A program made the position numbers and the translations under genes. From Actinomadura sp. K4S16 (GTDB lineage: Bacteria; Actinomycetota; Actinomycetes; Streptosporangiales; Streptosporangiaceae): a stretch of DNA of 64,000 nucleotides. The stretch is taken from contig NZ_BDDE01000023.1 of the NCBI RefSeq assembly GCF_008327685.1, forward strand, positions 124,001 through 188,000, read 5' to 3'. Below the pieces are notes generated by a model. The model searched no databases. It was not told the DNA's origin and saw only the letters and a list, made by a program, of their open reading frames with translations. Within the stretch, counting starts at the first letter, position 1. Every line of letters starts with the position of its first letter. Positions 3,012 through 62,141 of the stretch are shown here, one piece after another.

Positions 3012-3209
3012 GTTCGTACCTTCTCTTGGTATATGCCCATTCGATGGACCGTGATTATTTGAGCGAGTTCACTTCTTGGGGTTTACAAACTCAAGGTGTC
3101 CGCTTCATGCTCTGACCGTAGCGAAAGTCACGCACGGTAGATGAGCGATCACCTGAGGAAGTCGGGTGGATTGTGGTCGTTCGCGTGCCCGGAGAAGGGG
3201 CGTCCGACG

Positions 3210-3491
3210 ATGTCAGCGGATCAGCGGCCGCACGAGGTGCGGTTCAGCCTCCTGGCTGATCTCTGTTACAAGCTGGGGCAGCGCCAGCAGTGCACGTCCA
3301 TGCTCGTCCATCCGCGGGAAGGTGAGTCGGTCCTGTGGGTGCCGCAGCGCGGGTGGCCCCGGCAGTGGCTCGGGGTGGCGGCGGTCGACCATCGGGGCCG
3401 GTGGCTCTACACCTTCGGGAACCAGTGGAGCCGGGCCGGGGACGTGGCGGAGACCGCCGCGCGGGTGGCGTGGGCGGTGGGCGTCCGATGA
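3210..3491 (+). CDS. Small hypothetical protein of a whiJ/abaA-type locus
   Basis: A 93-aa protein that I cannot assign to a named family. It is mostly soluble and aromatic-rich (VLWVPQRGWPRQWLGV, then WLYTFGNQW), ending in a hydrophobic helix. An in-frame ATG at 3141 exists, but ATG 3210 follows a GGAGAAGGGG stretch and gives the better-supported start. Its stop overlaps the ATG of the next gene by 4 nt (ATGA), so the two are translationally coupled. The divergent XRE gene starts about 200 bp away. Co-occurrence with the HATPase suggests a shared pathway, but nothing in the sequence shows a function. Confidence 0.65.
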   Translation: MSADQRPHEVRFSLLADLCYKLGQRQQCTSMLVHPREGESVLWVPQRGWPRQWLGVAAVDHRGRWLYTFGNQWSRAGDVAETAARVAWAVGVR

Positions 3492-3970
3492 AGCACCTGG
3501 GGAACTGCGTCATCCCGGCCGCGCCGCAGAACGTGGCGAACGGTCGACGGTGGCTGCTGGGCCGCCTCGAACCACTCCTCGGTGCGAAGCACAGCGCCTG
3601 CGAGGACAGCGTCCTCCTGCTCTCCGAGACGCTCACCAATGCGATCGTCCACGGTGAGGGTGACCTCGTGGAGGTGGACGCTTACGTGGGCACGGCCGGC
3701 ATCCGCATCGAGGTCACCGACGAGGGCGGCAGTTCCGTCCCGCACCATGTCGACGACCCGCACGGCGAGCACGGGCGCGGCCTGCCCATCCTCGGAATGC
3801 TCGCCTCCTCTTGGGGCTTCGAGCATCTCGACGACGGCCGGTTGCGGGTCTGGTTCGAGGTAGGGCACACCGGCAGATCCGTTCCGGCCCCGGCCCCGCG
3901 TCGGGACGACGGGAGCCGAGGCGAGTCCCTCGGCCCGTCTCCCGACGCGGCGCACGTCGCCGATCACTGA
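3488..3970 (+). CDS. HATPase_c_2 ATP-binding protein, RsbW/SpoIIAB-like
   Basis: A 160-aa anti-sigma-type histidine-kinase-like ATPase. The N-box is SETLTNAIVHG (about residues 46-56), the G1 box VTDEGG (about 77-82), and the later GRGLPILGMLA matches the G2 region. These proteins bind ATP and, in the SpoIIAB/RsbW family, phosphorylate an anti-sigma-factor antagonist or hold a sigma factor. The C-terminal 35 residues after the GHERGI core are Pro/Arg-rich and probably disordered. It is coupled by a 4-nt overlap to the preceding small gene. Neighbouring XRE/DUF397 genes make it part of a WhiJ-like regulatory cluster; its partner is unknown. Confidence 0.88.
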   Translation: MKHLGNCVIPAAPQNVANGRRWLLGRLEPLLGAKHSACEDSVLLLSETLTNAIVHGEGDLVEVDAYVGTAGIRIEVTDEGGSSVPHHVDDPHGEHGRGLPILGMLASSWGFEHLDDGRLRVWFEVGHTGRSVPAPAPRRDDGSRGESLGPSPDAAHVADH

Positions 3971-4079
3971 CGATGTCCGGCGGCGCGGCCGGTCCTTCCG
4001 TTGCGCGCCGCCTCTCCAGCATGAACTCAACTCGACCCACCGGCGAGACCTCTCGCGGGCGCGATGTCGCGGAAGCCGG

Positions 4080-6194
4080 TCATTCGTCCTGCGGAGCGTG
4101 GACCGCGTTGTTCCTGATCTCTCGGGCGATGTCCACCAGCGATCCCTTCCCGGGCACGTGCCAGTGCAGCGTTCCCTGTACCTGCTGGTCGTTTCCCATG
4201 GCCTCGCGGCGCATGGCCCGAACCAGCGACGAGGGGGCGTACGCCTTGCCGTCGGCCTCCCACACGAGCGGCTTGCTCTTGTTGTTGCGCCATCGTGCCT
4301 TGGCGCGGTGCGGGTCCTCCGCCAACCACTGGGGGAACTGGCGGCGTTCCGGGGTGAACACCGGACGGAACTCCAGGACCTCGCCGTCCGGGATCGAACC
4401 CGCGTCGACGATCGCCCAGACCGCGCGTGTCTGCTGGCCGCCCTTACCGCTCGGACTCCCCGTCTGAGACTCGGCGTCGGCGGGGGGCTCAGCCCCGCCG
4501 AGCACATAGTCCCGAAGCCGCTTCGCGACGAGTTCGGCGCGGTCCGCGGTGCGCACCGTCGTGCTGATCTGGCTCTTGCCGCCGAAGGCACCGTCGATCA
4601 CCGGCACCAGCCAGCCGAGCGCCTTGCGCACGCGCTCCCGCACCTCGGCGAACCGCTGCTCCCAGACAGCCGCCGCCTCCTCGCCCTCGGCGTCGATGTC
4701 GCCCGTCTCCATGGCGTGAAAGAGCACGTGCGTGAGGAGCAGGTCGCCGTGGGCGGCGGCGCTGGCGGGGCGGCCCACCAGGCTCTCCTTCTGCTCGTCG
4801 AGCGCTTCGCGCACGGCGCGCAGCAGCCGGACGCACCGCCACACCCGGTGGGCACTCGGCGGGCCGCCGAAGAGGGTGCGGTAGTACCGGTCCTCCCAGA
4901 GTGACGAGGCGTCGCCCTTCGCTCGCGCGGCGAACTCGGCGGAGGGCTGGGCGGCGGCGAGCGCGAGGGCGGCCTCGGTCATGGTGCAGCCCTTCGCCCT
5001 GGGCGGGTCGGGCTCGCCGCGCTTGATGACGTAGTCGAGGCCCAGCGACAGCGCGAAGTCATGCCGGAGGTCCGATTGCTCGGGCCTGCGGGAGCGGAAG
5101 TCCCGCGCCTCGGTCGGGTTCTGTGTGTTCGCCGCGACCGTGATGCGGTCCCCGAAGTCGTCCGGAGCCTCTTCCAGGGAGATGATCCGCACCATGACCC
5201 GGCCGGCCGCCGCCTTGCCCGGCTTCTGCTGCATCGCCCGGCCGATGGCGCTCACGGTCTGCGCGCCGTTGATGACGTTCGCGCCCTCCAGGCGGAGCTT
5301 CGCGTTCCCGCCGCTGCCCGGAGCGCCCATGCCGTGCTTACGGATCCGGTCGCAGATCAGCGTGATCCCGTTGCTGAGGTACCAGAAGAGCTCCGGCTCC
5401 TTGACGAGCGTGGCGCGGATCTTCTCGTTGACATCGCTGATGTCCAGCGCGTCCCGGATGTTGCGGGCGGTGAGGTGGCGGCCGTGCCTGCCGTACCAGC
5501 CGGCGACCTCTTCGGCCGACACGGTTCCGTAGTAGGCGAGGAACGGGTCCGTGAACCGGCCCATGCTCTGGATCTCGACATCGAGGTCGACCTTGCGCTC
5601 GGCATGCTCACCGAGGATCTCGCGATACAGGTCCCGCAAGTTGATGATCTCGTAGCTCACCAGATCGTCATCGAGGTTGTGCTTATCGATCTGCTCTTCC
5701 AGGAGCGCCCGGGTGTTGGGGTGCAGATCGGTCGCGGTCACCAGGGCCAGTACGAGGACGACCTTGGGGGACGGGCTGTTCAGCGCGGCCTCCAGCGCCG
5801 CCGCATGGCGGTCGATCTTGCTGCCGAAACGGTGGAACTCCAGGTCCAGGAGGTAGTCGAGGCCGCGGATGACCGCCGATACGTCCCCTTCGCCGAACCC
5901 CGCCTCGCCCTTGCCGCTCCACTTCGCCTGGACGAGGGTGACATGCTGTCGCTCTCCGCGCTGCTCGACCGCCACCGCGTCGATACCGCGGTCGGTGTCG
6001 CAGTCGATCACCGAGCGGGCCGCCTCCTCGTCCGAGCAGGCGGTCTCCATCTTGATCGCCAGCGCGGCCACGGCTCGGCTGAGGAACGCCTGCTCCTCGT
6101 CCGGCCGTCCTGCCCAGTCGGTCATGTCGATCAGCGGCCGGAACCGCTCGCCGAACTGCCGCTTGAGGTTTCGCACCTGAACCGGGTATGCCAC
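4080..6194 (-). CDS. AIPR family protein (abortive-infection type) with PD-(D/E)XK-like signature
   Basis: A 704-aa protein matching the AIPR family, which is common in phage-defence islands. The N-terminal region carries RGIDAV (about residues 69-74) followed by TLVQAKW (86-92), the D...QxK pattern of PD-(D/E)XK nucleases; I infer a nuclease role. The central AIPR core is recognisable from ELFWYLSNGITLIC, ANVINGAQTV and AANTQNPTEARDF. The open frame continues upstream to 6566, but that extension is low-complexity. GTG 6194 is chosen because a GGAGA lies 6 nt upstream and the family usually begins with a short KRQF-type segment just before LIDM. It is divergent from the methylase-specificity fusion across 356 bp, suggesting a joint defence module. 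Confidence 0.87.
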   Translation of the reverse strand: MAYPVQVRNLKRQFGERFRPLIDMTDWAGRPDEEQAFLSRAVAALAIKMETACSDEEAARSVIDCDTDRGIDAVAVEQRGERQHVTLVQAKWSGKGEAGFGEGDVSAVIRGLDYLLDLEFHRFGSKIDRHAAALEAALNSPSPKVVLVLALVTATDLHPNTRALLEEQIDKHNLDDDLVSYEIINLRDLYREILGEHAERKVDLDVEIQSMGRFTDPFLAYYGTVSAEEVAGWYGRHGRHLTARNIRDALDISDVNEKIRATLVKEPELFWYLSNGITLICDRIRKHGMGAPGSGGNAKLRLEGANVINGAQTVSAIGRAMQQKPGKAAAGRVMVRIISLEEAPDDFGDRITVAANTQNPTEARDFRSRRPEQSDLRHDFALSLGLDYVIKRGEPDPPRAKGCTMTEAALALAAAQPSAEFAARAKGDASSLWEDRYYRTLFGGPPSAHRVWRCVRLLRAVREALDEQKESLVGRPASAAAHGDLLLTHVLFHAMETGDIDAEGEEAAAVWEQRFAEVRERVRKALGWLVPVIDGAFGGKSQISTTVRTADRAELVAKRLRDYVLGGAEPPADAESQTGSPSGKGGQQTRAVWAIVDAGSIPDGEVLEFRPVFTPERRQFPQWLAEDPHRAKARWRNNKSKPLVWEADGKAYAPSSLVRAMRREAMGNDQQVQGTLHWHVPGKGSLVDIAREIRNNAVHAPQDE

Positions 6195-46843: not shown

Positions 46844-49800
46844 GTGCCGGCAGCTTCCTACCGTCTCGTGCGCCGCGCGGGTCCCGCGCGGAGCGTCCCG
46901 CCTGTGCTCGACGAGCAGCAGCGGCGGGTGGTCGAGCATGCCGGTGGGCCGATGCTGGTGCTGGCGGGGCCGGGTACCGGGAAGACCACCACGATCGTGG
47001 AAGCGGTCGTCGACCGCATCGAGAACCGGGGAGTCGACCCCGAGCGGGTGCTCGTCCTGACGTTCAGCCGCAAGGCGGCGGGGGAGTTGCGGGAGCGCAT
47101 CACCGGCCGCTTGCACCGGACGACGCGAACGCCCCTGGCGCTGACCTTCCACAGCTACGCGTACGCGCTGATCCGGCGGGACGCCGTCCTGAACGAGGAG
47201 CCGGCGCCCCGGCTGCTGTCCGGTCCCGAGCAGCTGCTCGAAGTGCGGCGGCTGCTGGAGGGCGAGCTCGCGGACGGCGCCCGCGACTGGCCGGAGCGGC
47301 TGCGGGCCGCGCTGGCGACGCGCGGGTTCGCCGAGGAGCTGCGTGACTTCGCCCTGCGCGCGGTCGAGCGGCAGTACGCCGCGGAGGACCTCGCCGCCCT
47401 CGGGCGCATGCGGGGCCGCGACGACTGGGCCGCCATCGGCGGGTTCATGGAGCGGTACGTCGACCGGTTCCTGCTCGATCCCGTCCCCACCTACGACTAC
47501 GGCGAGCTGATCCACCTGGCCGCGGGCATGCTCGCCGACGAGGAGGTGCGCATCCGGGAGCAGGACGCCTACGACGCCGTGTTCGTGGACGAGTACCAGG
47601 ACACCGACCCTGCGCAGGAGGCCCTCCTGCACCACCTCGCGGGCGACGGGCGCGACCTGGTCGTGGTGGGCGACCCCGACCAGTCCATCTACGGGTTCCG
47701 AGGCGCCGACGTGCGCGGCATCCAGGAGTTCCCGAACCGCTTCCTCACGCTGGACGGCGACCCGGCGCCCGTGGTGGCGCTGCGGACGTGCCGCCGGATG
47801 GGACCCGAGATCCTCGCCGCCTCGCGGCGCATCGCGCGGCGGCTGCCCGCCGGGTCGGCGGGCGCCGCCGAGCACCGCGCGCTCCGTCCCGTGGACGAGC
47901 TCGACGAGGGCGAGGTGCGCGCGGTCATCGCCGACTCCGAGAGCCAGGAGTCCGCGCTGGTCGCCGATGAGCTGCGGCGCGCCCACCTGCTCGACGGCGT
48001 GCCGTGGTCGCGTATGGCGGTCCTGGTGCGCAGCGCGGTGCGGCAGGTTCCCGTGCTGCGGCGGGCGCTCGCCCAGGCCGGCGTGCCGGTGGTCGTCGCC
48101 GGCGACGAAGTGCCGCTGGTGGGGGAGCCCGCCGTCCGGCCGTTCCTCGTCCTGCTGAGGGCGGCGCTCAAGAAGGGCTTCCTGGACGAGGTCGTGGCGG
48201 AGGACCTCCTGACCGGTCCGCTGGGCGCCGCCGACGCGCTCGCCATGCGCCGCCTCAAGCGCGCTCTGCGCGACCTGGAGGAGCTGTCGGGCGGGCAGCG
48301 TCCGCTGGGCGAGCTTCTGGTCGCGGCGGTGAACGACCCCCGCGAACTGGTCCTCGTCCATGAGCGGGTCCGCGCGCCCGCCGAGCGGATCGCGAACCTG
48401 ATCGAGACGGCGCGGCGCAGCGCGCACGACGGCGGCACCGCCGAGGACGTCCTGTGGGCGGTGTGGCAGGAGAGCGGCCAGGCCGACGTGCTGCTGGAGC
48501 AGAGCGTCAAGGGCGGGACGCGCGGGGCGGCGGCCGACCGCGACCTCGACGCCGTGGTGGCGCTGTTCGACCACGCCGCGCGGTTCGTCGACCGGCTTCC
48601 CCAGGCGGGGCCCGAGCTGTTCGTCGACAACATCGCGTCCCAGGAGATCGCCGGTGACACGCTCGCAGAGCAGGCGCCGGAGGGGGAGGCGGTCCGGATC
48701 CTCACCGCGCACCGCTCCAAGGGCCTGGAGTGGGACGTCGTCGTCGTCGCCGGCGTCCAGGAGGGCGTCTGGCCCGACGTGCGGCTGCGCGGGTCGCTGC
48801 TCGGCGTCGAGGAGCTGGTCGAGCACGCCGCGGGGGCCGAACCGGACGGCGAGGCCGCCGCCGGCGCCTCCATGGCCGCCAAGATGCTCGACGAGGAGCG
48901 GCGCCTGTTCTACGTGGCGGTCACGCGCGCTCGCAAGCGCCTCGTGGTCACGGCCGTCGGCGGCGACGACACCGAGGAGCGGCCGTCCCGCTTCCTGAAC
49001 GAGCTCCTCCCCGGCGCGATCGAGCAGTCGCAGCTGGACGAGAAGACCCGCTGGCTCTCGCTGTCGGCGCTCGTGGCCGACCTGCGGTCCGTCGTCGCCG
49101 ACCCGTCGCGTCCCGAACCGCTGCGGCGCGCCGCCGCCGGGCACCTGGCCCGCCTGGCGCGCGCGGGCGTGCGCGGCGCGAAACCGGAGAACTGGTACGC
49201 CATCACCGCGCTGTCGGACTCCGGCCCCGCGTTCGCCGAGGACGAGCCCATCACGATCTCGCCGTCCCAGGTCGAGGCGTTCACCACGTGCGGGCTGCGC
49301 TGGCTGCTCGCCTCCGCGGTCGGCGCCCAGGAGGGCGGGCCCAACGAGTACAGCACCATGGGCAAGGTCGTCCACGCCGTCGCCGAGATGGCGGGCGCGG
49401 ACGACGGCGTCGACGAGGTGCACGTCGCGCGGCGGCTCGACGAGGTCTGGAACGACCTGGAGTTCCGCAGCTCCTGGTACTCGGAGAAGCAGCGCGAGCA
49501 GGCCGCCCGGATGGTCGACAAGTTCCTCGCCTGGCACCGCGACAACCCCAACGAGGTCGTCGCGCTGGAGGAGTCGTTCAAGGTCGACCTCGGCCGCGTC
49601 GTCATCAAGGGCCGCATCGACCGCGCCGAGCGCGACGAGCAGGGCCGCGCCGTCATCATCGACATCAAGACCTCCTCCACCGCCGTCCCGAAGGACGAAC
49701 TGGCCCGGCACCCGCAGCTCGGCGTCTACCAGTACGCGGTGATGCTCGGCGCGTTCGAGCGGCACGGGCTGATCGAGCCGGGCGGGGCGAAGCTGATCCA

Positions 49801-50017
49801 GGTCGGCAAGGCCGCGTTCACGGCGAAGGCGCGCGAGCAGGAGCAGCCCCCGCCGGCCGAGGACGCCGACCCCGAGTGGCCGAAGAAGCTCGTCGAGATC
49901 GTCGCGACGGGGATGGCCGGCGACGTCTTCCAGGCCAGGGCGAACGACAAGTGTCGCACCTGTCCCGTACGCTCCTGCTGCCCCGTCCATGACGAGGGCG
50001 GGCAGGTGAGCGACTGA
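46844..50017 (+). CDS. adnA: AdnA-like helicase-nuclease subunit
   Basis: A 1057-aa UvrD-like motor with a C-terminal RecB-type nuclease; in mycobacteria AdnA/AdnB resect double-strand breaks. Walker A is LAGPGTGKTTTI, motif II DEYQDTDPAQ, motif III GDPDQSIYGFRGAD, and motif VI VAVTRARKRL. The nuclease motif is IIDIKTSS. Cysteines at TTCGLRW and in CRTCPVRSCC near the C terminus form the four-Cys iron-sulfur staple of AddB/Adn nucleases. GTG 46844 is the start. AdnB follows after 19 bp. Length (about 1050) and order fit AdnA first. Confidence 0.93.
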   Translation: MPAASYRLVRRAGPARSVPPVLDEQQRRVVEHAGGPMLVLAGPGTGKTTTIVEAVVDRIENRGVDPERVLVLTFSRKAAGELRERITGRLHRTTRTPLALTFHSYAYALIRRDAVLNEEPAPRLLSGPEQLLEVRRLLEGELADGARDWPERLRAALATRGFAEELRDFALRAVERQYAAEDLAALGRMRGRDDWAAIGGFMERYVDRFLLDPVPTYDYGELIHLAAGMLADEEVRIREQDAYDAVFVDEYQDTDPAQEALLHHLAGDGRDLVVVGDPDQSIYGFRGADVRGIQEFPNRFLTLDGDPAPVVALRTCRRMGPEILAASRRIARRLPAGSAGAAEHRALRPVDELDEGEVRAVIADSESQESALVADELRRAHLLDGVPWSRMAVLVRSAVRQVPVLRRALAQAGVPVVVAGDEVPLVGEPAVRPFLVLLRAALKKGFLDEVVAEDLLTGPLGAADALAMRRLKRALRDLEELSGGQRPLGELLVAAVNDPRELVLVHERVRAPAERIANLIETARRSAHDGGTAEDVLWAVWQESGQADVLLEQSVKGGTRGAAADRDLDAVVALFDHAARFVDRLPQAGPELFVDNIASQEIAGDTLAEQAPEGEAVRILTAHRSKGLEWDVVVVAGVQEGVWPDVRLRGSLLGVEELVEHAAGAEPDGEAAAGASMAAKMLDEERRLFYVAVTRARKRLVVTAVGGDDTEERPSRFLNELLPGAIEQSQLDEKTRWLSLSALVADLRSVVADPSRPEPLRRAAAGHLARLARAGVRGAKPENWYAITALSDSGPAFAEDEPITISPSQVEAFTTCGLRWLLASAVGAQEGGPNEYSTMGKVVHAVAEMAGADDGVDEVHVARRLDEVWNDLEFRSSWYSEKQREQAARMVDKFLAWHRDNPNEVVALEESFKVDLGRVVIKGRIDRAERDEQGRAVIIDIKTSSTAVPKDELARHPQLGVYQYAVMLGAFERHGLIEPGGAKLIQVGKAAFTAKAREQEQPPPAEDADPEWPKKLVEIVATGMAGDVFQARANDKCRTCPVRSCCPVHDEGGQVSD

Positions 50018-50036: not shown

Positions 50037-53000
50037 GTGATCACGCCGGGAGAACTGGCCCGGCTGCTGGAGATCCCGGCGCCGACGGAGGAGCAGGCCC
50101 GGGTGATCGAGGCGCCGATGGCGCCGATGGCGGTGATCGCCGGCGCCGGGTCGGGCAAGAGCGAGACGATGGCCGCGCGCGTGGTGTGGCTGGTCGCGAA
50201 CGGCTTCGTCCGGCCGGAGCGCGTCCTCGGCCTCACCTTCACCCGCAAGGCCGCCGCCGAGCTCGGCGTGCGCGTGCGCAAGCGGCTCGACAGGCTCCGC
50301 GAGGTCCTGCCCGGCGACGAGCTGGAGCGGCTGGGCGGCGAGGCCCTGTTCGACGGCGAGCCGATGGTGTCCACGTACCACTCGTACGCGGCGCGCCTCT
50401 TCGGCGACCACGCCCTGCGCGAGGCGCTCGAACCCACGATGCGGCTGATCTCGCCTGCCGTCGCCTGGCAGATCTGCTCGCGGGTGGTCGACGCCTACCA
50501 CGGCCCCATGGACCGGATCGACTGGCAGCCCGACACCGTGACGAAGGCCGTCATGGAATTGTCCGGCGACCTGGCGGAGCACCTGCGCACGGCCGAGGAC
50601 GTCCGCAAGGTCGGCGCCTGGCTCGACGAGCGGCTCGCCGTGGTGAAGAAGCCGCTCAAGGCGCAGCGCGACGTCCTCGCCAAGCACGCCGTCCGCGAGC
50701 AGCTCATGCCGCTCATCGAGGCGTACGGGCGCGCCAAGGCCGACCGCGAGGTCATCGACCACGGCGACCAGATGGCCCTCGCCGCGCGCATCGCCTACAA
50801 GCACCCCGAGGTCGGGATGATCGAGCGGTCCCGGTTCTCGGTCGTTCTGCTCGACGAGTACCAGGACACCAGCCAGGCGCAGCTCGTCCTGCTGAAGTCG
50901 CTGTTCGCGGGCGGGCATCCGGTGACGGCCGTCGGCGACCCCTGCCAGTCCATCTACGGGTGGCGCGGCGCGAGCGCCGGGAACCTGCTGCGGTTCGCCT
51001 ACGACTTCCCCGCGCAGCCGGCGGCCGCCGCCGGCGGGCGCCCGGTGGCCGCGCCGGTCGTCCAGCTCAGCCGGTCGTTCCGCAACGGCGAGCAGATCCT
51101 GGAGGCGGCGGCCAAGGTACAGGAGGAGCTGCGCGCCGAGACGAAGGCCGTGCCCCGCCTCATCCCGGGCGCCGGGCGCGAAGGGCGCGGACGCGTCGAA
51201 TGCGCCCTGTTCCCCACCGTGGAGGACGAAGCCGACCGCATCGCCGACCGCATCGCCGGGGTCATGGCCGCCGACCCCGAGACCGCCCCCGACGGCGGCC
51301 CCCAGACCGAGCCGCTCCGGTACTCCGACATCGCCGTCCTGGCCCGGAAGCGGTCGCAGTTCCCGCTGATCAGGCGCGCCCTGGAGGCGCGCGGCATCCC
51401 GGTCGAGGTGGTCGGGCTCGGCGGGCTCCTCACCGTCCCCGAGGTGCAGGACGTCGTCGCCACGCTGCGCGTCATGCACGACCCGACCGCGGGCGCGTCC
51501 CTCGCCCGCCTCCTCACCGGCCCGCGCTGGCGCCTCGGCCCCCGCGACCTCGTCGCCCTGGGACGCCGTGCCCGCGCCCTGGCCCAGGAGGCGGCCCGCG
51601 ACATCACCCGCCCGGACGACCGCCCCGTCCCGGCGCACGACGAGCCGCCCCCCGCCGCACCCGCAGAGGGAGCCGGGGAGGGGCCCAATGAGGGGGCCGG
51701 GGAGGGGGCCGGGGAGGGGGCCGGGGAGGGGCCCGCGGGGGACGATCCGCTTCGGCAGCTCGTCAGCGAGTTGAACCAGGAGACCGGCAGCCTCGTCGAC
51801 GCGCTCGACGACCTCGGCCCGCCCGACGCGTACTCGCCCGAGGGGTACGGGCGGCTGCGGCGCCTCCGCGACGAGCTGCGCGGCCTGCGGAGCCAGGTCG
51901 GGCTGCCGCTGCCGGACCTGGTCAACGAGGTCGAGCGGGCGCTCGGCCTCGACATCGAGGTCGCCGCGCGGTCCGGGCTCGACCCGGTCACCGCCCGCGC
52001 CGACCTCGACGCCTTCATCGACGCCGCCGCCACGTTCGCCGGCGACGCCGAAGACCCGACGCTCGGCGCGTTCCTCGCCTACCTCAAGGCCGCCGAGACC
52101 GAGGAGTTCGGGCTGGAGGCCGGGCGGGTCGGGGAGACCGACAGCGTCAAGCTCCTCACCGTCCACGCCTCCAAGGGCCTCGAATGGCCGGTCGTGGTCG
52201 TCCCCGGCCTGGCGTACACGCCGCAGAAGAACGGCGGCCCCGCCAAGGGGTCGATCTTCCCGTCGCCGCCGCAGAACGCCACCCGCTGGACCGCGAACCC
52301 GCGCGTCCTGCCGTTCATGCTGCGCGGCGACCGCGCCGACCTGCCCGCGCTGACCGGGCTGGAGAAGGACGACCTCGCCGCGTTCGAGCAGGCGTGCTCC
52401 GAGCGCGACCTGCGCGAGGAGCGGCGGCTCGCCTACGTCGCGGTCACGCGCGCGTCCAGCCTGCTCATCACCACCGGCTACTGGTGGGGGTCCTCGGGGC
52501 GCCCGCTCGGACCGTCGCCGTTCCTGGAGGAGGTGCGGGCGGTCTGCCTCGCCGGGGCCGGGTCCGTCGCCGTTTGGGCCGACCCGCCGGAGGAGGGCGC
52601 CGCCAACCCGCTGCTCGCCGACCCCGACGAGGCGCAGTGGCCCATCGCGCCCGGCGAGCGCGGCCGGTCCGACCTGTCGGCGCGGGCGCGCTACGAGGCG
52701 GTCGTCGAGGGCGCCCGCATGGTCGAGGACGAGATGGCCGGGCGCACCCGCCACTGGGCCGGCGACGCCGGGCTGTCGGACGCCGACCGGGCCCGCATGA
52801 CGGCGTGGGCGCGCGACGTCGAGCTGCTGCTCGCCGAGCGCGACCGGGGGCGCGGCGGCGACGGCCTGCTCGTCGAGCTGCCCGCGCACCTGTCGGTGTC
52901 GTCGCTGGTGTCGCTGGCGCGCGACCCGGCGGCGCTCGCCCGGCAGATCCGCCGCCCCATGCCGCGCCCGCCCGCCCCCTACGCGCGGCGCGGCACCGCG

Positions 53001-53474
53001 TTCCACGCCTGGCTGGAGGGCCGCTGGGGGCAGCAGCGGCTCCTCGACCCCGACGAGCTGCCCGGTGCCGCCGACGAGGGCGCCGCCGACGACTCGCACC
53101 TGGCGATGCTGCGCGAGCGCTTCGAGGGGTCGCAGTGGGCGGCGCGCGAGCCGCTCGACATCGAGGTGCCGTTCGAGACCATCATCGGCGACCGGCTGGT
53201 CCGGGGCCGGATGGACGCCGTGTTCCGGACCCGGGACGGCGGATACGAGGTCGTCGACTGGAAGACCGGCTCCCCGCCGTCGGGGGAGGAGGCGCGGTTC
53301 GCCGCCGTGCAGCTCGCCGCGTACCGGCTGGCGTGGGCCGAGCTCGCCGGAGTGGACGTCGCGCAGGTCAGCGCGGCGTTCCACTACGTCGCCGCCGACG
53401 TGACCGTCCGTCCGGCCGACCTGCTCGACGCCGCGGGCCTCGCCGCGCTGCTGGAGGGCGTCCCGGCCGCCTGA
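50037..53474 (+). CDS. adnB: AdnB-like helicase-nuclease subunit
   Basis: A 1145-aa partner of AdnA. Walker A GAGSGKSETM, motif II DEYQDTSQAQ, motif III GDPCQSIYGWRGASAG, motif VI YVAVTRASSLL and the nuclease motif YEVVDWKTG are all intact, so both motor and nuclease should be active. A Glu/Gly/Ala-rich linker near residues 540-575 is built from a 12-nt repeat and interrupts the helicase; it is likely flexible. GTG 50037 is preceded by GGGGGGAG. Function: end resection after double-strand breaks, complementing the nearby Ku/ligase pathway. Confidence 0.93.
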   Translation: MITPGELARLLEIPAPTEEQARVIEAPMAPMAVIAGAGSGKSETMAARVVWLVANGFVRPERVLGLTFTRKAAAELGVRVRKRLDRLREVLPGDELERLGGEALFDGEPMVSTYHSYAARLFGDHALREALEPTMRLISPAVAWQICSRVVDAYHGPMDRIDWQPDTVTKAVMELSGDLAEHLRTAEDVRKVGAWLDERLAVVKKPLKAQRDVLAKHAVREQLMPLIEAYGRAKADREVIDHGDQMALAARIAYKHPEVGMIERSRFSVVLLDEYQDTSQAQLVLLKSLFAGGHPVTAVGDPCQSIYGWRGASAGNLLRFAYDFPAQPAAAAGGRPVAAPVVQLSRSFRNGEQILEAAAKVQEELRAETKAVPRLIPGAGREGRGRVECALFPTVEDEADRIADRIAGVMAADPETAPDGGPQTEPLRYSDIAVLARKRSQFPLIRRALEARGIPVEVVGLGGLLTVPEVQDVVATLRVMHDPTAGASLARLLTGPRWRLGPRDLVALGRRARALAQEAARDITRPDDRPVPAHDEPPPAAPAEGAGEGPNEGAGEGAGEGAGEGPAGDDPLRQLVSELNQETGSLVDALDDLGPPDAYSPEGYGRLRRLRDELRGLRSQVGLPLPDLVNEVERALGLDIEVAARSGLDPVTARADLDAFIDAAATFAGDAEDPTLGAFLAYLKAAETEEFGLEAGRVGETDSVKLLTVHASKGLEWPVVVVPGLAYTPQKNGGPAKGSIFPSPPQNATRWTANPRVLPFMLRGDRADLPALTGLEKDDLAAFEQACSERDLREERRLAYVAVTRASSLLITTGYWWGSSGRPLGPSPFLEEVRAVCLAGAGSVAVWADPPEEGAANPLLADPDEAQWPIAPGERGRSDLSARARYEAVVEGARMVEDEMAGRTRHWAGDAGLSDADRARMTAWARDVELLLAERDRGRGGDGLLVELPAHLSVSSLVSLARDPAALARQIRRPMPRPPAPYARRGTAFHAWLEGRWGQQRLLDPDELPGAADEGAADDSHLAMLRERFEGSQWAAREPLDIEVPFETIIGDRLVRGRMDAVFRTRDGGYEVVDWKTGSPPSGEEARFAAVQLAAYRLAWAELAGVDVAQVSAAFHYVAADVTVRPADLLDAAGLAALLEGVPAA
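51666..51736. repeat. 12-nt minisatellite inside adnB
   Basis: About four to five copies of a GGGGGCCGGGGA-type unit encode Glu-Gly-Ala-Gly repeats in the linker. Copy number may vary between strains without changing frame, since the unit is 12 nt. Confidence 0.8.
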
Positions 53475-56438: not shown

Positions 56439-58661
56439 TCACTGCGATCTTGCGGCATGGAGGTTGCGGCGCACGATATCGGTGCTCGGGTGGTCAGGCC
56501 CCAGTACCCGTTCGAAGTCGGTGAGGGTTCGTTCGAGGATGGGGACCGCGCGTTCGAGGTCTCCCGCGTCCCGGTAGGCGCGGGCGAGGTTGTTGCGGGA
56601 GATCAGCGTGTTGGGGTGGTCAGCCCCCAGGACCCGTTCGCGATCGGTGAGGATCTGTTCGAACATGGGGATCGCCCGTTTGAGGTCCCCCGCGTCCCGG
56701 TAGGCGACGGCGAGGTTGTTGCGGGCCCGCAAGGTCTCAACGTGGTCGCTGCCGCGCGCCTGCTCGAAGTCGGTGAGGGTTCGTTCGAGCATGGGGGTGG
56801 CGCGTTCGAGGTCTCCCGCGTCCCGGTAGGTGCTGGCGAGGTTGTTTCGGGAGATGAGAGTCTCGACGTGGTCGCTGCCACGCACTTGCTCGGAGTCGGT
56901 GAGGGTTCGTTCGAGCATGGGGATGGCGCGTTCGAGGTCTCCCGCGTCCCGGTAGGCGATGGCGAGGTTGTTGCGGGAGGTCAGAGTCGCAGGGTGGTCG
57001 CTGCCCAATACCCGTTCGCGATCGGCGAGGATCCGTTCGAACATGGGGATCGCGCGTTCCAGGTCCCCTGCGTCCTGGTAGGCGCGGGCGAGGTTCCCGA
57101 GGGAGGTCAGGACGGCCGGGGAACGGTCGCCGTGAAGGCGCTGGTTGGTGGCCAGGGCGCGTTGGAAGTACTCGATGGCGCGGATCAGGGAGCCTTGCCG
57201 TTGCAGGAGGGTGGCGGTGCGGTCCAGCAGGTGCTGAGTGATGTCGGTGTCGGTGTCGGCCGGTGCGTGGTCGGCCAGGGCGTCGATGTGGGGGAGCAGA
57301 GCCCGCCACATCGGCCATCTGGCAGGGTCTTCGACGTCGGAAGGGCGGACCTCGTCCAGGACGCGGGCGGCGGTGTCGCGGGCGGTGGCGATGTCATCGT
57401 GCTGACGGTGTGGGTCGGCCGGGTCGGGGGCGCGCGCGACGGCCTGCACCAGCCGGTGCACGGTGACCGCGCCCCCCTCGTCCAAAGCGATCATGTTGTA
57501 GGCGGCCAGCGCACCCAGGGCGTGCCGGAGCGCCGTCAGGTCCACTCCAGGGGTGAGGCGGGGCGAGGAGCGCCGCCGCAGCCAGGCCGGCAGCCCTCGT
57601 CGCCGGCGCGATCCCGGCGGGCTGCCGTTCAAGGCGGCGGGAATGCCTTCGACAAGGGTGCGGGGAATGGCCTCGGGGGCGTACCAGGCCAGGACTCGAA
57701 GCATGTCCCCGGCCAGTGGGGTGTCGGTGAGCTGGTCGAGGGTGAGGCGCCAGATCCGGGCGATGGTGCGTGCGGCGTCGGCGCCCTGGGCGGTCTGGTC
57801 GTACATGACCGCAGGTGAGTCGGCCAGCAGGTTCAGGTAGGCGCGCGGGGAGAGCCGGTGCTGGTGCAGGTAGGCGGCGGCCTGCTCGATCGCCAGCGGC
57901 AGGTGACCCAGCTCTTCGGCCAGGTCGGCAGCGCCCTCCAGATCCGCGCCGGGCCGGTCGTGGGCGGCGATGCGAGTGAGCAGTTCCACCGCCTGCCCAC
58001 TGGTGAGCACGTCCAGCCGCAGCACTTGGGCGCCGAACCGGTGCCAGCTCTCGGCCAGCCGGCTGGTGACCAGGACCCGCCCGTTGCTCGTGCGGGCCAT
58101 CACCGGGGCGATGTGCTCGGGGTCGTTGACGTTGTCCAGCACGAGCAGCCAGCCGTCATGGCTGCTCAGCCAGGTCAGCGCCCACTCGGCCAGGGCCTCC
58201 AGGGGCAGTGCCTGCTTCAGTTCGGGCTGCAGTGCGACGGTGAGTGCGGCCAGTCCCGCCTGGACGGCCTCGCCGGTGTCGGCGGTGATCCACCACACCG
58301 GGGAGAACCGGTCGCGGCGGCGGGTGGCATAGCGAGCGGGCAGGGTGGACTTGCCCACCCCGCCCAGGCCGTGCACCGCGGCCACCAACACCTCACCCGA
58401 GTCGGTCAAGGCCGCGTCCAGCTTCTGCAGTTCGGTGCCGCGCCCGACGAACAAGTGCGCATGCGACGGAACGTTGGTCAGGCCCGGCGGGGCGGTCACG
58501 TCAGCGGGTCGTACCGAGTACGACAGCACGACCTGCCGCTCGATGCGCTGCTCGGTGAAGTTCTGGTCCCGACCGGCTTGGTTCACAACGCCGTGCCCCG
58601 ACGCGGTGCCTTCCATATGCGAGGAGGGTTGGTCAGGTTGGGGTTCGGCTCCGCCGGCCAT
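56439..58661 (-). CDS. NLR-like NB-ARC/TPR ATPase with N-terminal amyloid-type motif (copy 1)
   Basis: A 740-aa STAND ATPase. Residues 17-38 carry the putative signalling motif GTASGHGVVNQAGRDQNF. The NB-ARC domain has Walker A GLGGVGKST (98-106), Walker B WLLVLDNV (171-178) and the GHLPLA motif (252-257) of the winged-helix junction. Residues 516-725 are five 42-aa kinesin-light-chain-like TPRs, then a partial sixth. In this family the C-terminal repeats sense a ligand and NB-ARC oligomerises; the N-terminal motif probably recruits an effector. ATG 58661 follows the effector gene by 13 bp, so they are one operon. It is a diverged duplicate of the 59209-61698 gene. Confidence 0.9.
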   Translation of the reverse strand: MAGGAEPQPDQPSSHMEGTASGHGVVNQAGRDQNFTEQRIERQVVLSYSVRPADVTAPPGLTNVPSHAHLFVGRGTELQKLDAALTDSGEVLVAAVHGLGGVGKSTLPARYATRRRDRFSPVWWITADTGEAVQAGLAALTVALQPELKQALPLEALAEWALTWLSSHDGWLLVLDNVNDPEHIAPVMARTSNGRVLVTSRLAESWHRFGAQVLRLDVLTSGQAVELLTRIAAHDRPGADLEGAADLAEELGHLPLAIEQAAAYLHQHRLSPRAYLNLLADSPAVMYDQTAQGADAARTIARIWRLTLDQLTDTPLAGDMLRVLAWYAPEAIPRTLVEGIPAALNGSPPGSRRRRGLPAWLRRRSSPRLTPGVDLTALRHALGALAAYNMIALDEGGAVTVHRLVQAVARAPDPADPHRQHDDIATARDTAARVLDEVRPSDVEDPARWPMWRALLPHIDALADHAPADTDTDITQHLLDRTATLLQRQGSLIRAIEYFQRALATNQRLHGDRSPAVLTSLGNLARAYQDAGDLERAIPMFERILADRERVLGSDHPATLTSRNNLAIAYRDAGDLERAIPMLERTLTDSEQVRGSDHVETLISRNNLASTYRDAGDLERATPMLERTLTDFEQARGSDHVETLRARNNLAVAYRDAGDLKRAIPMFEQILTDRERVLGADHPNTLISRNNLARAYRDAGDLERAVPILERTLTDFERVLGPDHPSTDIVRRNLHAARSQ
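56487..57116. repeat. Five tandem 126-nt TPR repeats in NLR copy 1
   Basis: Each 126-nt unit encodes a 42-aa TPR with RNNLAxAYRDAGDLERAIPM. Units differ by only a few codons, which favours slippage or unequal recombination changing repeat number. Confidence 0.85.
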
Positions 58662-58674
58662 CGCTCTGAAGCCG

Positions 58675-59034
58675 TTACCGGTCGCGGTGGATGTGCTGGT
58701 CGCGTCCGGCCTGGTAGATGCGGCCGTGCCCGGAGGCGGTGCCCTTGATCTGGGTGTTGGTCGTGCCGTCTCCGGTGGAGACGATGCCGGTGTTGGTGGC
58801 GTTGTCGCCGAACTGGACCGACCGATCGCCTGCTGACCGGTCCCTCCCGGAAGTCCGGCGGGCTTGCACGGCCCCGGACACGGCCATGACCAGCCCGGCG
58901 ATGCCGACCACGGCGCCGATGACCCCGATGGTGTCGTCCCAGTGGAAGCCCTTCACCGCGAAGTACACGATCAACGCGGCCACCGATGCGGCCGCGATGA
59001 CGCCGCCGGCCCAGGCCAGTACGCGCCCTGTCAT
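58675..59034 (-). CDS. Two-helix membrane effector with C-terminal amyloid-type motif (copy 1)
   Basis: A 119-aa protein: helix about 6-27 (LAWAGGVIAAASVAALIVYF), loop KGFHWDDT, helix about 35-56 (TIGVIGAVVGIAGLVMAVSG), then a Gly/Asn/Thr-rich tail (GDNATNTGIVSTGDGTTNTQ) ending GTASGHGRIYQAGRDQHI, with IYQAG at 106-110. The same motif starts the next protein. I infer a membrane-acting effector, such as a pore, whose tail is templated into an amyloid by the NLR. ATG 59034 is chosen because the paralogue at 61695 shares this start while the upstream sequence, though nearly identical in DNA, is frame-shifted between copies and so not coding. Stop TAA lies 13 bp before the NLR ATG. Confidence 0.82.
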   Translation of the reverse strand: MTGRVLAWAGGVIAAASVAALIVYFAVKGFHWDDTIGVIGAVVGIAGLVMAVSGAVQARRTSGRDRSAGDRSVQFGDNATNTGIVSTGDGTTNTQIKGTASGHGRIYQAGRDQHIHRDR

Positions 59035-59044
59035 GCCCCCCATA

Positions 59045-59113
59045 ATCGACCCGTCCACCCGGCGACAACAGGTCATCCGCCACAAACGCCGGAACCGGAC
59101 GACCAACATGCAC
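59045..59113. repeat. Conserved 69-nt leader, copy 1
   Basis: Identical over 69 nt to 62073-62141, upstream of the two effector genes. It is not coding (reading frames differ between copies), so it is likely promoter or leader preserved by recent duplication or selection. The coding repeat continues at 58899-58967, which matches copy 2 over 69 nt. Confidence 0.8.
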
Positions 59114-59208
59114 GAATACGGACGACCACACTCGTTGACTATCCCCGCATAGCCAGTTCGGCCGCCCTTGCGAGCGTCGGAAACGAGTTCTGAACGGATT
59201 GACGCCCG

Positions 59209-61698
59209 TCACTGCCCACCTTGCTGTTGTGTCGCTGATTCGAGATTGGCGCGCACGATCTCGGTCATCGGGTGGTCTTTGCTCAGGACCCGCTCGCAGT
59301 CGGCCAGGGTCTGCTCGTACATCTGGATCGCGCGCTCTAGATCTCCTGCGTCCTGGTAGGCGCTGGCAAGGTTGTTGCGAACCGTCAGGGTGTCAGGGTG
59401 GTCGTGGCCTAGAACCCGCTCGCGATCGGCCAGGGTCTGCTCGTACAACGGGATCGCCCGACCCAGGTGACCCGCCTTCTGATAGGCGTTGGCGAGGTTA
59501 TTGCGGGAGCTCAGGGTGTAGGGGTGGTCGGTGCCCAGGACCCGCTCGCAGTCGGCCAGAGTCTGCTGGTACGGCGGGATCGCGCGTTCCAGGTCTCCTG
59601 CGTCCTGGTAGGCGTAGGCGAGGTTGTTGCGAGATGCCAGGGTGTCGGGGTGGTGGGCGCCCAGGATCCGCTCGCGGTCGGCGAGAGTCTCTACGTGCAG
59701 TTGGATCGCGCGCTCCAGGTCGCCCGCGTCCTGGTAGGCGCTGGCAAGGTTGTTGCGAGCGGTCAGGGTGTCAGGGTGGTCGTGGCCCAAGACCCGCTCG
59801 CGGTCGGCGAGGGTCTGTTCGTGCAGCGGGATCGCCCGGGTCAGGTCGCCCGCGTCCCGGTAGGCGTAGGCGAGGTTGTTGCGGGAGCTCAAGGAGTCAG
59901 GGTGGTCGTGGCCCAAGACCCGCTCGCGGTCGGCGAGGGTCTGCTCGTGCAGTTGGATCGCACGTTCCAGGTCGCCCATGTCCTGGTAGGCGTTGGCAAG
60001 GTTGTTGCGAGCGGTCAGGGTGTCAGGGTGGTCGTGGCCCAGAACCCGCTCGTAGTCGGTGAGGGTCTGTTCGTGCAGCGGGATCGCCCGGGTCAGGTCG
60101 CCCGCGTCCCGGTAGGCGTAGGCGAGGTTGTTGCGGGAGGCCAAGGTCTCGAAGTGGTCGTCGCCGCGCAGTCGGCGGTCTGTGGTCAGGGCGCGTTCGA
60201 AGTAGGCGATCGCGCGGGTGAGCACTCCTTGGTTCTGCAGGAAGGTGGCGGTCCGGTCCAGCAGCAGGCTGGTGCGGGTGGAGTCGGTGTCCAGAGGTGC
60301 GTGGTCGGCCAGGGCGTCGATGTGGGGGAGTAGCTGTCGCCAACGCGGCCAACCGCTCGGGTCTTCAACGTCGGCGGGGCGGGCCTGATCCAGCAATCGG
60401 GTGGCGGTGTGCAGAGCGGTGATGATCGCCTCTGGGCTGCGGTGGGGGTCCCGGTCGCCGGGGCGGTCGTCGGGGGTGCGGGCGAGAGCCTGGACCAGCC
60501 GGTGCACGGTGATGGTGCCGGGCGTGAGGGTGATCATGTTGTAGGCGGCGAGCTTGCCGAGTGCGGCCTGCAACAGCGGTGCCTCCACGATCTCCCCGGC
60601 CCCTGCGGTCGCGTCGGCGTTCTCGGCCTCATGCGGTCGGGTCAGGCCGTCGAGCAGACTGCGGGGGATGGCCTCGGGGGCGTACCAGGCCAGGACGCGC
60701 AGTAGGTCACCGGCCAGTGGCGTGTCGGCGGTGAGCCGGTCCACGGTGATCCGCCAGATCCGCGCGATCGTGCGGGTGTCGCCGCCTTCGGCGAGCAGGT
60801 CGTACATCATCGCCGGTGAGGCCGCCAACAGCTCCAGGTAGGCGCGCGGAGGCAACTGGTTCTGGTTGATGAACGCGCCGGCCTGTTCGATCGCCAGCGG
60901 GAGGAATCCCAGCTCGGCCACCAGCTCGTCCGCGCCGTCCGGATCGATCTCCCAGCCGTTGGTGGTGGCGATGCGGGTGAGCAGTTCCAGCGCCTGATCG
61001 GGGGTGAGCACATCCAGCCGCAGGACCCGGGCATTGTGACGGTGCCAGCCCTGGCCGAGCCGACTGGTGACCAGGAACCGTCCGGCCCTCGTGCGTTCCA
61101 GCAGCGGGACGATGTGTGCCGGATCGGTGACGTTGTCCAGGACCAGCAGCCAGCCGGAGTGGCAGCCCAGCCAGGTCAACGCCCACTCGGCCAGCGCCTC
61201 CAGCGGCAACGCCTCGGTGAGTTCGGGCTGCAGCGCGGTCGCCATACCGGCCAGCCCGGCCTGCACGGCCTCTTGGGTATCGGCGGTGATCCACCACACC
61301 GGGTGAAACTTGATCGCCCCGGGGGGTGCGCCCCTACCGACCTCGTCGCTGCTTTCGGGCCGGGCGTGGGTGAGGGCGTAGCGGGCGGCCAGCGTGGACT
61401 TGCCCACCCCGCCCAGCCCTGACACCGCGGCCACCACGACCTGCTCGGAGGCTCGCAGGGCGGCGTCCAGATCGGTCAGCTCGCTCTCCCGCCCGACGAA
61501 CAGGTCCGCGTGGGCGGGCAGGTTGAGCAGGCCTGGCGGAGCCGGCACCTCGGAGGCCGGACGCACCTGAATGGTCCGCTCATCGATGTACTGGTCCCGG
61601 GCCGCCTGGTACACCCTGCCGTCTCCGGAAGCGGTCGCCTCCATATGGATGTCAGCAGCCTTTCGGGCGTCGCCGGGATCGGTCCGCGGGCTACTCAC
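59209..61698 (-). CDS. NLR-like NB-ARC/TPR ATPase with N-terminal amyloid-type motif (copy 2)
   Basis: An 829-aa paralogue of the 56439-58661 gene. The N-terminal motif ATASGDGRVYQAARDQYI (21-38) differs from the others at one core position (QAA in place of QAG). Walker A GLGGVGKST is at 94-102 and GWLLVLDNV gives Walker B. Residues 517-810 hold seven 42-aa TPRs (ASRNNLAYAYRDAGDL type). GTG 61698 overlaps the effector stop as GTGA, so translation is coupled; ATG 61644 inside the motif region is a weaker alternative. It contains an extra acidic/Ala insertion (about residues 360-380) relative to copy 1. Likely the sensor of the second unit. Confidence 0.9.
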   Translation of the reverse strand: MSSPRTDPGDARKAADIHMEATASGDGRVYQAARDQYIDERTIQVRPASEVPAPPGLLNLPAHADLFVGRESELTDLDAALRASEQVVVAAVSGLGGVGKSTLAARYALTHARPESSDEVGRGAPPGAIKFHPVWWITADTQEAVQAGLAGMATALQPELTEALPLEALAEWALTWLGCHSGWLLVLDNVTDPAHIVPLLERTRAGRFLVTSRLGQGWHRHNARVLRLDVLTPDQALELLTRIATTNGWEIDPDGADELVAELGFLPLAIEQAGAFINQNQLPPRAYLELLAASPAMMYDLLAEGGDTRTIARIWRITVDRLTADTPLAGDLLRVLAWYAPEAIPRSLLDGLTRPHEAENADATAGAGEIVEAPLLQAALGKLAAYNMITLTPGTITVHRLVQALARTPDDRPGDRDPHRSPEAIITALHTATRLLDQARPADVEDPSGWPRWRQLLPHIDALADHAPLDTDSTRTSLLLDRTATFLQNQGVLTRAIAYFERALTTDRRLRGDDHFETLASRNNLAYAYRDAGDLTRAIPLHEQTLTDYERVLGHDHPDTLTARNNLANAYQDMGDLERAIQLHEQTLADRERVLGHDHPDSLSSRNNLAYAYRDAGDLTRAIPLHEQTLADRERVLGHDHPDTLTARNNLASAYQDAGDLERAIQLHVETLADRERILGAHHPDTLASRNNLAYAYQDAGDLERAIPPYQQTLADCERVLGTDHPYTLSSRNNLANAYQKAGHLGRAIPLYEQTLADRERVLGHDHPDTLTVRNNLASAYQDAGDLERAIQMYEQTLADCERVLSKDHPMTEIVRANLESATQQQGGQ
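59269..60150. repeat. Seven tandem 126-nt TPR repeats in NLR copy 2
   Basis: Seven units of 126 nt encoding 42-aa TPRs, several nearly identical to one another at the DNA level (for example the ones with GHDHPDTLTARNNLA). Repeat number differs from copy 1 (five). Confidence 0.85.
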
Positions 61699-62063
61699 TG
61701 GTCCTTGATGTACTGGTCTCGTCCGGCCTGATACACCCGGCCGTGCCCGGATGCCTCACCTCTGATCTGGGTGTTGGCCGCGCCGCCTCCGGTGGAGACG
61801 ATGCCGGTGTTGGTGCCGTCATCGCCGATCCGTACTGACCGTTCCCCGCCCGGCCCGTCCAGCTGCTGATCGGGGTCGGGGGTTCGGTGGCCCCGTACGG
61901 CTCCGTACACGGCCATTACCAGGCCGACGATGCCGACCACGGCGCCGATGACCCCGATGGTGTCGTCCCAGTGGAAGCCCTTCACCGCGAAGTACAAGAT
62001 CAACACCGCCACCGATGCGGCCGCGATGATGCCGCCGGCCCAGGCCAGTACGCGCCCCGTCAT
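61695..62063 (-). CDS. Two-helix membrane effector with C-terminal amyloid-type motif (copy 2)
   Basis: A 122-aa protein with the same layout as copy 1: helices about 6-27 and 35-56, then a Gly/Asn/Thr-rich tail ending GEASGHGRVYQAGRDQYI, core VYQAG at 110-114. The first 50 residues are almost identical to copy 1; the variable region between 57 and 80 differs most. ATG 62063 is chosen for the reason given for copy 1. Its stop overlaps the NLR start, giving coupled expression of effector and sensor. No ribosome site is obvious other than GCGGC-rich sequence. Confidence 0.82.
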   Translation of the reverse strand: MTGRVLAWAGGIIAAASVAVLILYFAVKGFHWDDTIGVIGAVVGIVGLVMAVYGAVRGHRTPDPDQQLDGPGGERSVRIGDDGTNTGIVSTGGGAANTQIRGEASGHGRVYQAGRDQYIKDQ

Positions 62064-62072
62064 GCCGCCATC

Positions 62073-62141
62073 ATCGACCCGTCCACCCGGCGACAACAGG
62101 TCATCCGCCACAAACGCCGGAACCGGACGACCAACATGCAC
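62073..62141. repeat. Conserved 69-nt leader, copy 2
   Basis: Matches 59045-59113 exactly over 69 nt. It is part of the 315-bp region 62064-62378 between the effector and the divergent gene at 62379, which otherwise holds no gene I can support and includes AT-richer stretches near 62205-62290 that could hold promoters for both strands. Confidence 0.8.

Follow-up and report, generated by a model that had tools for sequence, protein, structure and literature searches.

Two tandem NLR-effector pairs of Actinomadura sp. K4S16 share a terminal motif and carry a predicted two-helix membrane effector

In a stretch of 64,000 nt of Actinomadura sp. K4S16 (contig NZ_BDDE01000023.1, C23 in our contig labels; hereafter the window, in whose positions the coordinates are given), four genes at 56439–62063 form two tandem pairs, each made of a small putative effector and a NOD-like receptor (NLR). 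They follow one another on the minus strand as E2, N2, E1 and N1, and the location of the four frames bears out the effector-NLR-effector-NLR order proposed in a first-pass annotation of this DNA. E2 (61695–62063) and E1 (58675–59034) encode predicted two-helix effectors with a double tail, of 122 and 119 aa, respectively, both counted from an ATG. N2 (59209–61698, GTG start) and N1 (56439–58661) encode NLRs of 829 and 740 aa, made of an N-terminal motif, an NB-ARC domain and tetratricopeptide repeat (TPR) units. The E2 stop and the N2 start share the bases GTGA, and only 13 bases separate E1 from N1; each pair is therefore probably translated together.

Both receptors score above the Pfam cut-offs for NB-ARC (E = 1.4e-10 for N1 and 4.7e-8 for N2) and for TPRs (TPR_12 in N1, E = 7.9e-76; TPR_10 in N2, E = 4.1e-102). 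A pattern count of regular 42-residue TPR units gave five in N1 and seven in N2, thus the repeat number differs between the two units, as had been noted in the first pass. Moreover, NF040586, the NCBIfam model of the FxSxx-COOH TPR protein, matches N1 and N2 with 415 and 467 bits, respectively (cut-off 300).

The effectors E1 and E2 each contain two hydrophobic helices, at about residues 2–28 and 33–58, as indicated by hydropathy and, for E2, by an AlphaFold2 model. The mean predicted local distance difference test score (pLDDT) of this model is 53.5, with block means of 63–82 in the hairpin part (61890–62060, minus strand). These two predicted membrane helices agree with the membrane effector suggested by the first-pass annotation, from which the positions of the helices and the second tail segment described below were absent. 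In both proteins the N terminus has a charge of +1 and the short loop of −1, and the stretch after helix 2 has +3 in E1 and 0 in E2; this distribution would favour a cytoplasmic placement of both ends of the hairpin. No Pfam or NCBIfam family matched E1 or E2 above cut-off. Among 14 relatives of the two-helix effectors, the best Pfam match was DUF7269 (E = 0.00035), a family of unknown function; a PHROGs holin matched E2 weakly (E = 0.0038), and a search of solved structures with the two-helix family gave one match, at E = 0.51.

All four proteins are linked by a motif, here termed seg2, with the core QA(G/A)RDQ and the consensus xxMxAxASGHGRVYQAGRDQxIxEx. It lies at the C terminus of the effectors, as GTASGHGRIYQAGRDQHI in E1 (58684–58755, 56.8 bits) and GEASGHGRVYQAGRDQYIKDQ in E2 (61698–61772, 58.5 bits), and at the N terminus of the receptors, as SGHGVVNQAGRDQNF in N1 (58548–58619, 55.8 bits) and SGDGRVYQAARDQYI in N2 (61576–61650, 57.3 bits), all on the minus strand, the bits being those of a profile that includes these sequences themselves. 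Local alignments between effector tails and receptor N termini scored 70–81, and none of 5000 shuffles reached the score in any of the four effector-receptor combinations, which confirms that the motif is common to the four proteins, as previously proposed.

At the scale of the whole genome, an 18-base pattern of the motif was found in 12 places versus 5 for a reversed control; three of them correspond to the copies in the window, and the nine remaining sites fall in seemingly unrelated frames. A looser pattern gave 22 places versus 17 for the control, with one further real-looking motif at C11:126702. At this site (L053, C11 ~126450–126722, minus strand), a 39-aa frame with GRVFQAGRDMVVYEAEDPYRLRW, followed by a stop, precedes in the same frame a divergent FxsT-like NLR of 868 aa; in its relatives L139 and L201, a similar motif is continuous in frame with the NLR. 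A 25-position seg2 profile matched 75 of 338 genomes of the host family, in 19 of 68 genera (E ≤ 0.01), and by name the relatives reach Streptomyces, Kitasatospora and Actinophytocola. The R and D of seg2 are invariant or nearly so.

In relatives, seg2 also ends effectors adjoining NLRs whose heads we call Bell-like. Bell has been described as a helical bundle with a hydrophobic helix (PMC7889193), and our label reflects the fit to this description together with a model of the head as six helices (mean pLDDT 85.6, tail loose). When these effectors were scanned, Pfam and NCBIfam offered no Bell model, and Foldseek found 0 matches of the Bell-like model at E ≤ 0.001. Profiles of the two-helix and the Bell-like effectors align over the last 28 columns only (E = 1.3e-15), therefore the two kinds of effector have different heads and the same tail. 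The head of E1 and E2 is thus, by prediction, a two-helix membrane hairpin and not a Bell domain.

A second motif, seg1, sits before seg2 in the tails of E1 and E2 (core GDNxGIVSTGD, consensus RSxxxxGDNSGIVSTGDGATNxQMxA). It reads VQFGDNATNTGIVSTGDGTTNTQIKG in E1 (58741–58818, minus strand, 48.2 bits) and VRIGDDGTNTGIVSTGGGAANTQIRG in E2 (61758–61835, minus strand, 45 bits), each sequence again being part of the profile. The seg1 profile matched 56 of the 338 host-family genomes (E ≤ 0.01); in a class-wide sample, it was detected in 2 of 394 genomes (E ≤ 1e-4), both from the host family and one of them the present genome. The distribution of the two motifs was examined in 138 unique effectors, deduplicated on the last 90 residues (the counts are thus of sequences, not of independent events), with head classes assigned by hydropathy and home-made profiles. 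Two-helix heads carried both motifs in 36 cases, seg1 alone in 11 and seg2 alone in 2, versus 2, 1 and 68, respectively, for Bell-like heads. Soluble or other heads were followed by both motifs (10), seg1 (2) or seg2 (4), and one-helix heads by both (1) or seg2 (1). In the host-family loci (96 effectors), seg1 was present on 36 of 38 seg2-bearing two-helix effectors versus 2 of 29 Bell-like ones, a contrast (Fisher 4e-14) between rows that are not independent. By eye, the two-helix heads comprise at least three sequence types, two of which were found via the tail; the share of two-helix heads with seg1 is therefore biased, a bias lessened by a search with the seg2 profile, the loci being taken from part of the matches listed. 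Of 72 unique NLRs, 63 bore only seg2, 7 both motifs and 2 only seg1. As judged by these profile matches, seg1 is nearly confined to the host family and mostly found on two-helix effectors, while seg2 is widespread and is the usual end of Bell-like effectors.

The simplest history would be that seg1 was the original password of the two-helix effectors, and that a Bell-type seg2 was later added behind it; the reverse order, seg2 first, may also have occurred, as two-helix effectors with seg2 alone would allow. In L114, L117, L120 and L127, which have another head, a third motif-like stretch (GAGSQVISxSxIxGxxxQIGxAxxxxI) was observed before seg1 and seg2, and tails with three segments may thus exist. 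In L133, L143 and L216, proteins with a hydrophobic head terminate in two variant motif copies in which Q(I/V)(G/A)G replaces QAGRD.

Partners were defined as motif-bearing neighbours within 700 nt, a neighbour with neither motif being counted as none. All 51 partners of the 75 seg2-only effectors carry seg2 (none for 24), and all 4 partners of the 14 seg1-only effectors carry seg1 (none for 10). Double-tailed effectors (n = 49) have a partner in 28 cases, 27 with seg2 and 1 with seg1 (none for 21). In three of the seg1-only links (L282, L283 and L284), a two-helix effector ending in seg1 is followed by an NLR starting with seg1, and no seg2 above 10 bits was found in effector or NLR; the seg1 match of the L284 NLR is weak (12 bits). 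The partner in the fourth link, L281, is a membrane protein, not an NLR. In L114, a double-tailed effector with another head adjoins an NLR bearing only seg1.

Moreover, in a permutation test that ignores shared ancestry, the motifs of own partners agree at 0.526 of their positions versus 0.492 for random partners (71 pairs from the window and relatives; 0/5000 permutations), and those of two-helix heads taken together at 0.567 versus 0.517 with others (25 pairs; 1/5000 permutations). Swapping units within six two-unit loci, which controls for species, gave a higher identity for own than for cross pairs in L110, L116 and L121, the same identity in L100 and the window, and a lower one in L206. 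Head, tail and NB-ARC are even fused in one frame in two genera, in L147 of Actinomadura sp. BRA 177 (596 aa, stopping before the repeats) and in L155 of Nonomuraea turkmeniaca (908 aa, with repeats). Such fusions support a joint function; they would also allow a tether role, which is considered below.

Solo double-tailed two-helix effectors were observed in genus g40, which holds named Nonomuraea (L089, L090, L092, L094, L095, L103 and L112), the flanking DNA retrieved containing no motif receptor. Other loci have partners that are not NLRs. Those of L149 (8183–9565), L164 (8276–9481) and L213 (7355–9334) combine the motif, a hydrophobic helix and a domain that has YKTQ(F/L)L(I/V)D close to its beginning, with no Pfam match, and in L281 (frame 3211–4606, minus strand) a similar domain shares one frame with a two-helix head and seg1. 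These proteins may be membrane sensors feeding the same motif network. The Bell-like effectors of L175, L181, L186, L189, L192, L195 and L205 have a motif partner with a CPYP...FFGR stretch; the L181 partner matches Pfam nSTAND1 (E = 1.6e-118) and WD40, and the other six were placed by likeness only.

The two units of the window do not share a simple history. N1 is sister to an NLR from Actinomadura sp. WMMA1423 (support 100/99), and N2 groups with three other NLRs (94/94) in a clade separate from that of N1. Synonymous divergence (dS) between units 1 and 2 is 0.18 for the effector heads, 0.42 for the tails and 0.53 for the NB-ARC parts; between E1/N1 and the WMMA1423 unit, it is 0.23, 0.20 and 0.37, respectively. 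The receptor tree and dS rule out a recent simple tandem duplication. The last 100 bases upstream of E1 and E2 are 91.9% identical. Given that heads and upstream DNA are alike while the receptors sit in different clades, gene conversion between the units that covered the upstream region and the head, while the tails and receptors diverged, would fit and is a lead to follow; alternatively, purifying selection may have acted on the head, and the compared stretches are short. An alignment of seven effectors delimits the near-identical non-coding stretches at 59035–59113 for E1 and 62064–62141 for E2 (minus strand). This element (GACCTGT...CGGGTCGAT), kept directly before the start of seven effectors of the genus, might serve as a promoter or leader.

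The first-pass annotation had read the doubling as either two specificities or cross-talk, with a motif that differs between the units. The differing sensors speak for two specificities; motif identity in the window is the same for own and cross pairs (0.54). As the motifs do not separate the units, cross-talk is therefore expected. A third unit was observed in the same genome (L049, contig C37, 8119 bases, ~2882–4628), with an open effector (E3) and a broken NLR frame; the tail of E3 contains LNQAGRDL, and the NLR starts with the same variant. This copy is set apart by its motif (own 0.59 and 0.57 versus cross 0.45 and 0.49).

Bacterial pairs have been described in which an NLR with an N-terminal motif adjoins an effector with a C-terminal one (PMC7889193). 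In NLR and Bell effector pairs, these are bacterial amyloid signalling sequence (BASS) motifs (PMC7889193, PMC8086366, PMC12261475), and effector domains other than Bell occur less often (PMC7889193). According to the published model, NB-ARC oligomerises once the repeats have sensed a signal, and the N-terminal motifs brought together in this way form a seed that converts the effector tail and clusters its membrane-acting head (PMC7889193, PMC12261475). The locus has the layout of such pairs, as anticipated in the first pass: an NLR with a nucleotide-binding domain and repeats, an adjacent effector gene, the motif at the N terminus of the former and the C terminus of the latter (PMC7889193), an actinomycete host and, in relatives, Bell-like effectors ending in seg2. 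It differs in the effector head, a predicted two-helix hairpin in place of the Bell bundle, and in a tail with two motifs. The mechanism class, amyloid-type NLR-effector signalling, is already known.

The RHIM-like character suggested in the first pass did not hold up against the one printed BASS3 peptide available for comparison. Among 2000 shuffles, those matching this peptide as well as seg1 numbered 194 for E1, 551 for E2, 1240 for E3 and 161 for the family consensus, and those as good as seg2 numbered 621 for E1 and 1096 for E2. BASS3 itself has been assayed in Podospora anserina through GFP foci and infection, with Q-to-P variants as controls (PMC9815663). In alignment A1, a VQxGD core, which we take to be RHIM-like, occurs only in E1 and its near-identical relative P0003.

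Fungal HET-S/NWD2 and HELLP/PNT1 resemble the locus in that a STAND receptor with an N-terminal motif stands beside a membrane-acting effector with a C-terminal one (PMC7889193). PNT1 consists of a PP motif, NB-ARC and TPR, and HET-s-type effector domains contain two pseudo-repeats (PMC7889193). In contrast to these, the two effector segments of the locus are unlike motifs, each with partners of its own, rather than copies of a single motif; no sequence relation to the fungal signalosomes was found, and no search was aimed at one. A HET-s-type receptor carries one pseudo-repeat. SLATT-type effectors are also small two-helix membrane proteins, belong to conflict systems and have been proposed as pore formers (PMC7159879); SLATT was absent among the 16 Pfam families touched by any of the 14 relatives (E ≤ 0.1).

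Taken together, we lean slightly towards the view that the locus comprises two tandem receptor-effector pairs in which an amyloid-type relay through seg2 fires a two-helix membrane effector, so that two sensors would serve one output. Gene order, spacing, the shared seg2, the two hydrophobic helices, the NB-ARC/TPR architecture and the presence of seg1 on both seg2-less effectors and their neighbours are the observations on which it builds; sensing, oligomerisation, templating, membrane damage and a use in immunity would be its inferred part. A triggered TPR sensor would cause the NB-ARC protein to oligomerise, and the gathered N-terminal seg2 motifs would form a seed, likely with an amyloid-type fold. 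This seed would convert the matching effector tail and cluster the two-helix heads in the membrane, where they would permeabilise or arrest the cell. The effector would thereby act as a two-plug adaptor, with seg2 coupling to the adjacent receptor and seg1 either offering other receptors a second way in or mediating self-assembly, and the two units would be different sensors feeding one kind of membrane effector, with cross-talk. Amyloid-type signalling by seg2 is plausible because this motif also ends Bell-like effectors adjoining NLRs, the published setting of amyloid motifs.

Several results weigh against this reading. No seg1 receptor was detected in this genome (E ≤ 0.01; the three matches are all effectors), thus no partner for the second plug is apparent and dual input is a prediction. 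Two of the 38 seg2-bearing two-helix effectors in host-family loci lack seg1, as do P0010 and P0012–P0014 (two-helix head and seg2), therefore the presence of seg1 on two-helix heads is a strong trend with exceptions. As regards pairing, among the 27 double-tailed two-helix effectors flanked by 3 kb or more on each side, 13 lie in loci where no motif-bearing receptor was found (one of these loci, L107, contains a short receptor frame), so pairing is not universal; the solo copies could be shared executioners or a sign of looser pairing. Bell-like pairs alone gave a weak signal (0.507 versus 0.496, 41 pairs, 77/5000 permutations) in the permutation test, with its disregard of shared ancestry, and the equal own and cross identity in the window adds to this. 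The best PADLOC matches were at E = 0.016 (N2) and 0.049 (E2), with none for E1. Finally, AlphaFold2 leaves the E2 tail unstructured from residue 59 (pLDDT <50), which is neutral as to assembly.

A bolder version, which we hold only tentatively and consider rather improbable as a whole, is that the tail works as an OR gate. Here seg1 and seg2, as two prion-like, amyloid-type motifs placed in series, would each answer to a receptor class of its own, and the solo copies would be shared executioners. The two-helix effector would have gained a link to a second and older network of receptors and could be fired from either side.

Other explanations of the locus were weighed against the two-sensor relay. 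The two-helix protein might be a membrane tether, anchoring the active receptor assembly without damaging the membrane, with the output elsewhere. The L147 and L155 fusions do resemble membrane-anchored receptors, the head measures only ~60 residues and has no good Pfam match (the DUF7269 value above being the best), and the nearest lytic family is the weak PHROGs holin. However, this tail is also found behind Bell-like and further heads, which would be effectors themselves, and 13 receptorless genes out of 27 would be unexpected for a mere anchor, so that we regard a tether as unlikely. We would give a similarly low chance to docking without amyloid, in which effector and receptor would recognise each other through the motif as a plain short binding site, building a finite complex and no templated polymer. 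The unstructured effector tail, the failed match to the one comparable BASS peptide and the conserved charged R and D, in our judgement unusual for a plain steric zipper, all fit docking; yet a homotypic segment that is N-terminal in the receptor and C-terminal in the effector is the arrangement of the published amyloid pairs (PMC7889193, PMC12261475).

A role of N1 and N2 as TPR proteins of an FxSxx-COOH peptide system is suggested by their NB-ARC/TPR architecture and NF040586 scores above the curated cut-off. This model matches 47 stretches of the genome (E ≤ 0.001) and is therefore not specific. Moreover, the only FxsB above cut-off in the genome is on contig C17, with a 661-bit FxSxx TPR gene ~5 kb away, whereas the window lies on C23; the locus has no FxsB and adds an N-terminal motif and a membrane effector partner. 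We therefore rejected an FxSxx-COOH system by location and consider this role very improbable.

Two adjacent genes, each for a UvrD helicase plus PD-(D/E)XK nuclease (46844–50017 and 50037–53474), lie 3 kb from the NLR locus. With the other neighbours tested (a methyltransferase, an AMP-binding enzyme, a MerR regulator and one protein without family), they form no clear defence island. A mobile origin was not supported either: a phage search with the effector gave no match, and among the 99 plasmid records that matched, none had one place covering 80% of the query, the ten plasmid matches listed being all on tetratricopeptide-type genes.

What appears to be new at this locus, within a BASS comparison of one BASS3 peptide, is that the motif is joined to a two-helix head, that the tail is double and its halves are used separately, and that the effector heads of both units are alike. 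No title, abstract or passage in the literature searched described this two-helix, double-tail variant, the founding BASS families not being part of the comparison; a full-text search for QAGRD gave one paper, on a different subject according to its abstract.

Bacterial amyloid signalling has been described mainly with Bell-type heads. If our reading is true, the two-motif tail would show how amyloid pathways get rewired and branched, and the motif pair could be used to find hidden receptors and solo executioners by sequence. The double tail offers a direct test case for one effector templated by two unlike seeds, and the tandem units, whose receptors have diverged and whose effector heads are alike, a compact natural case for studying cross-talk.

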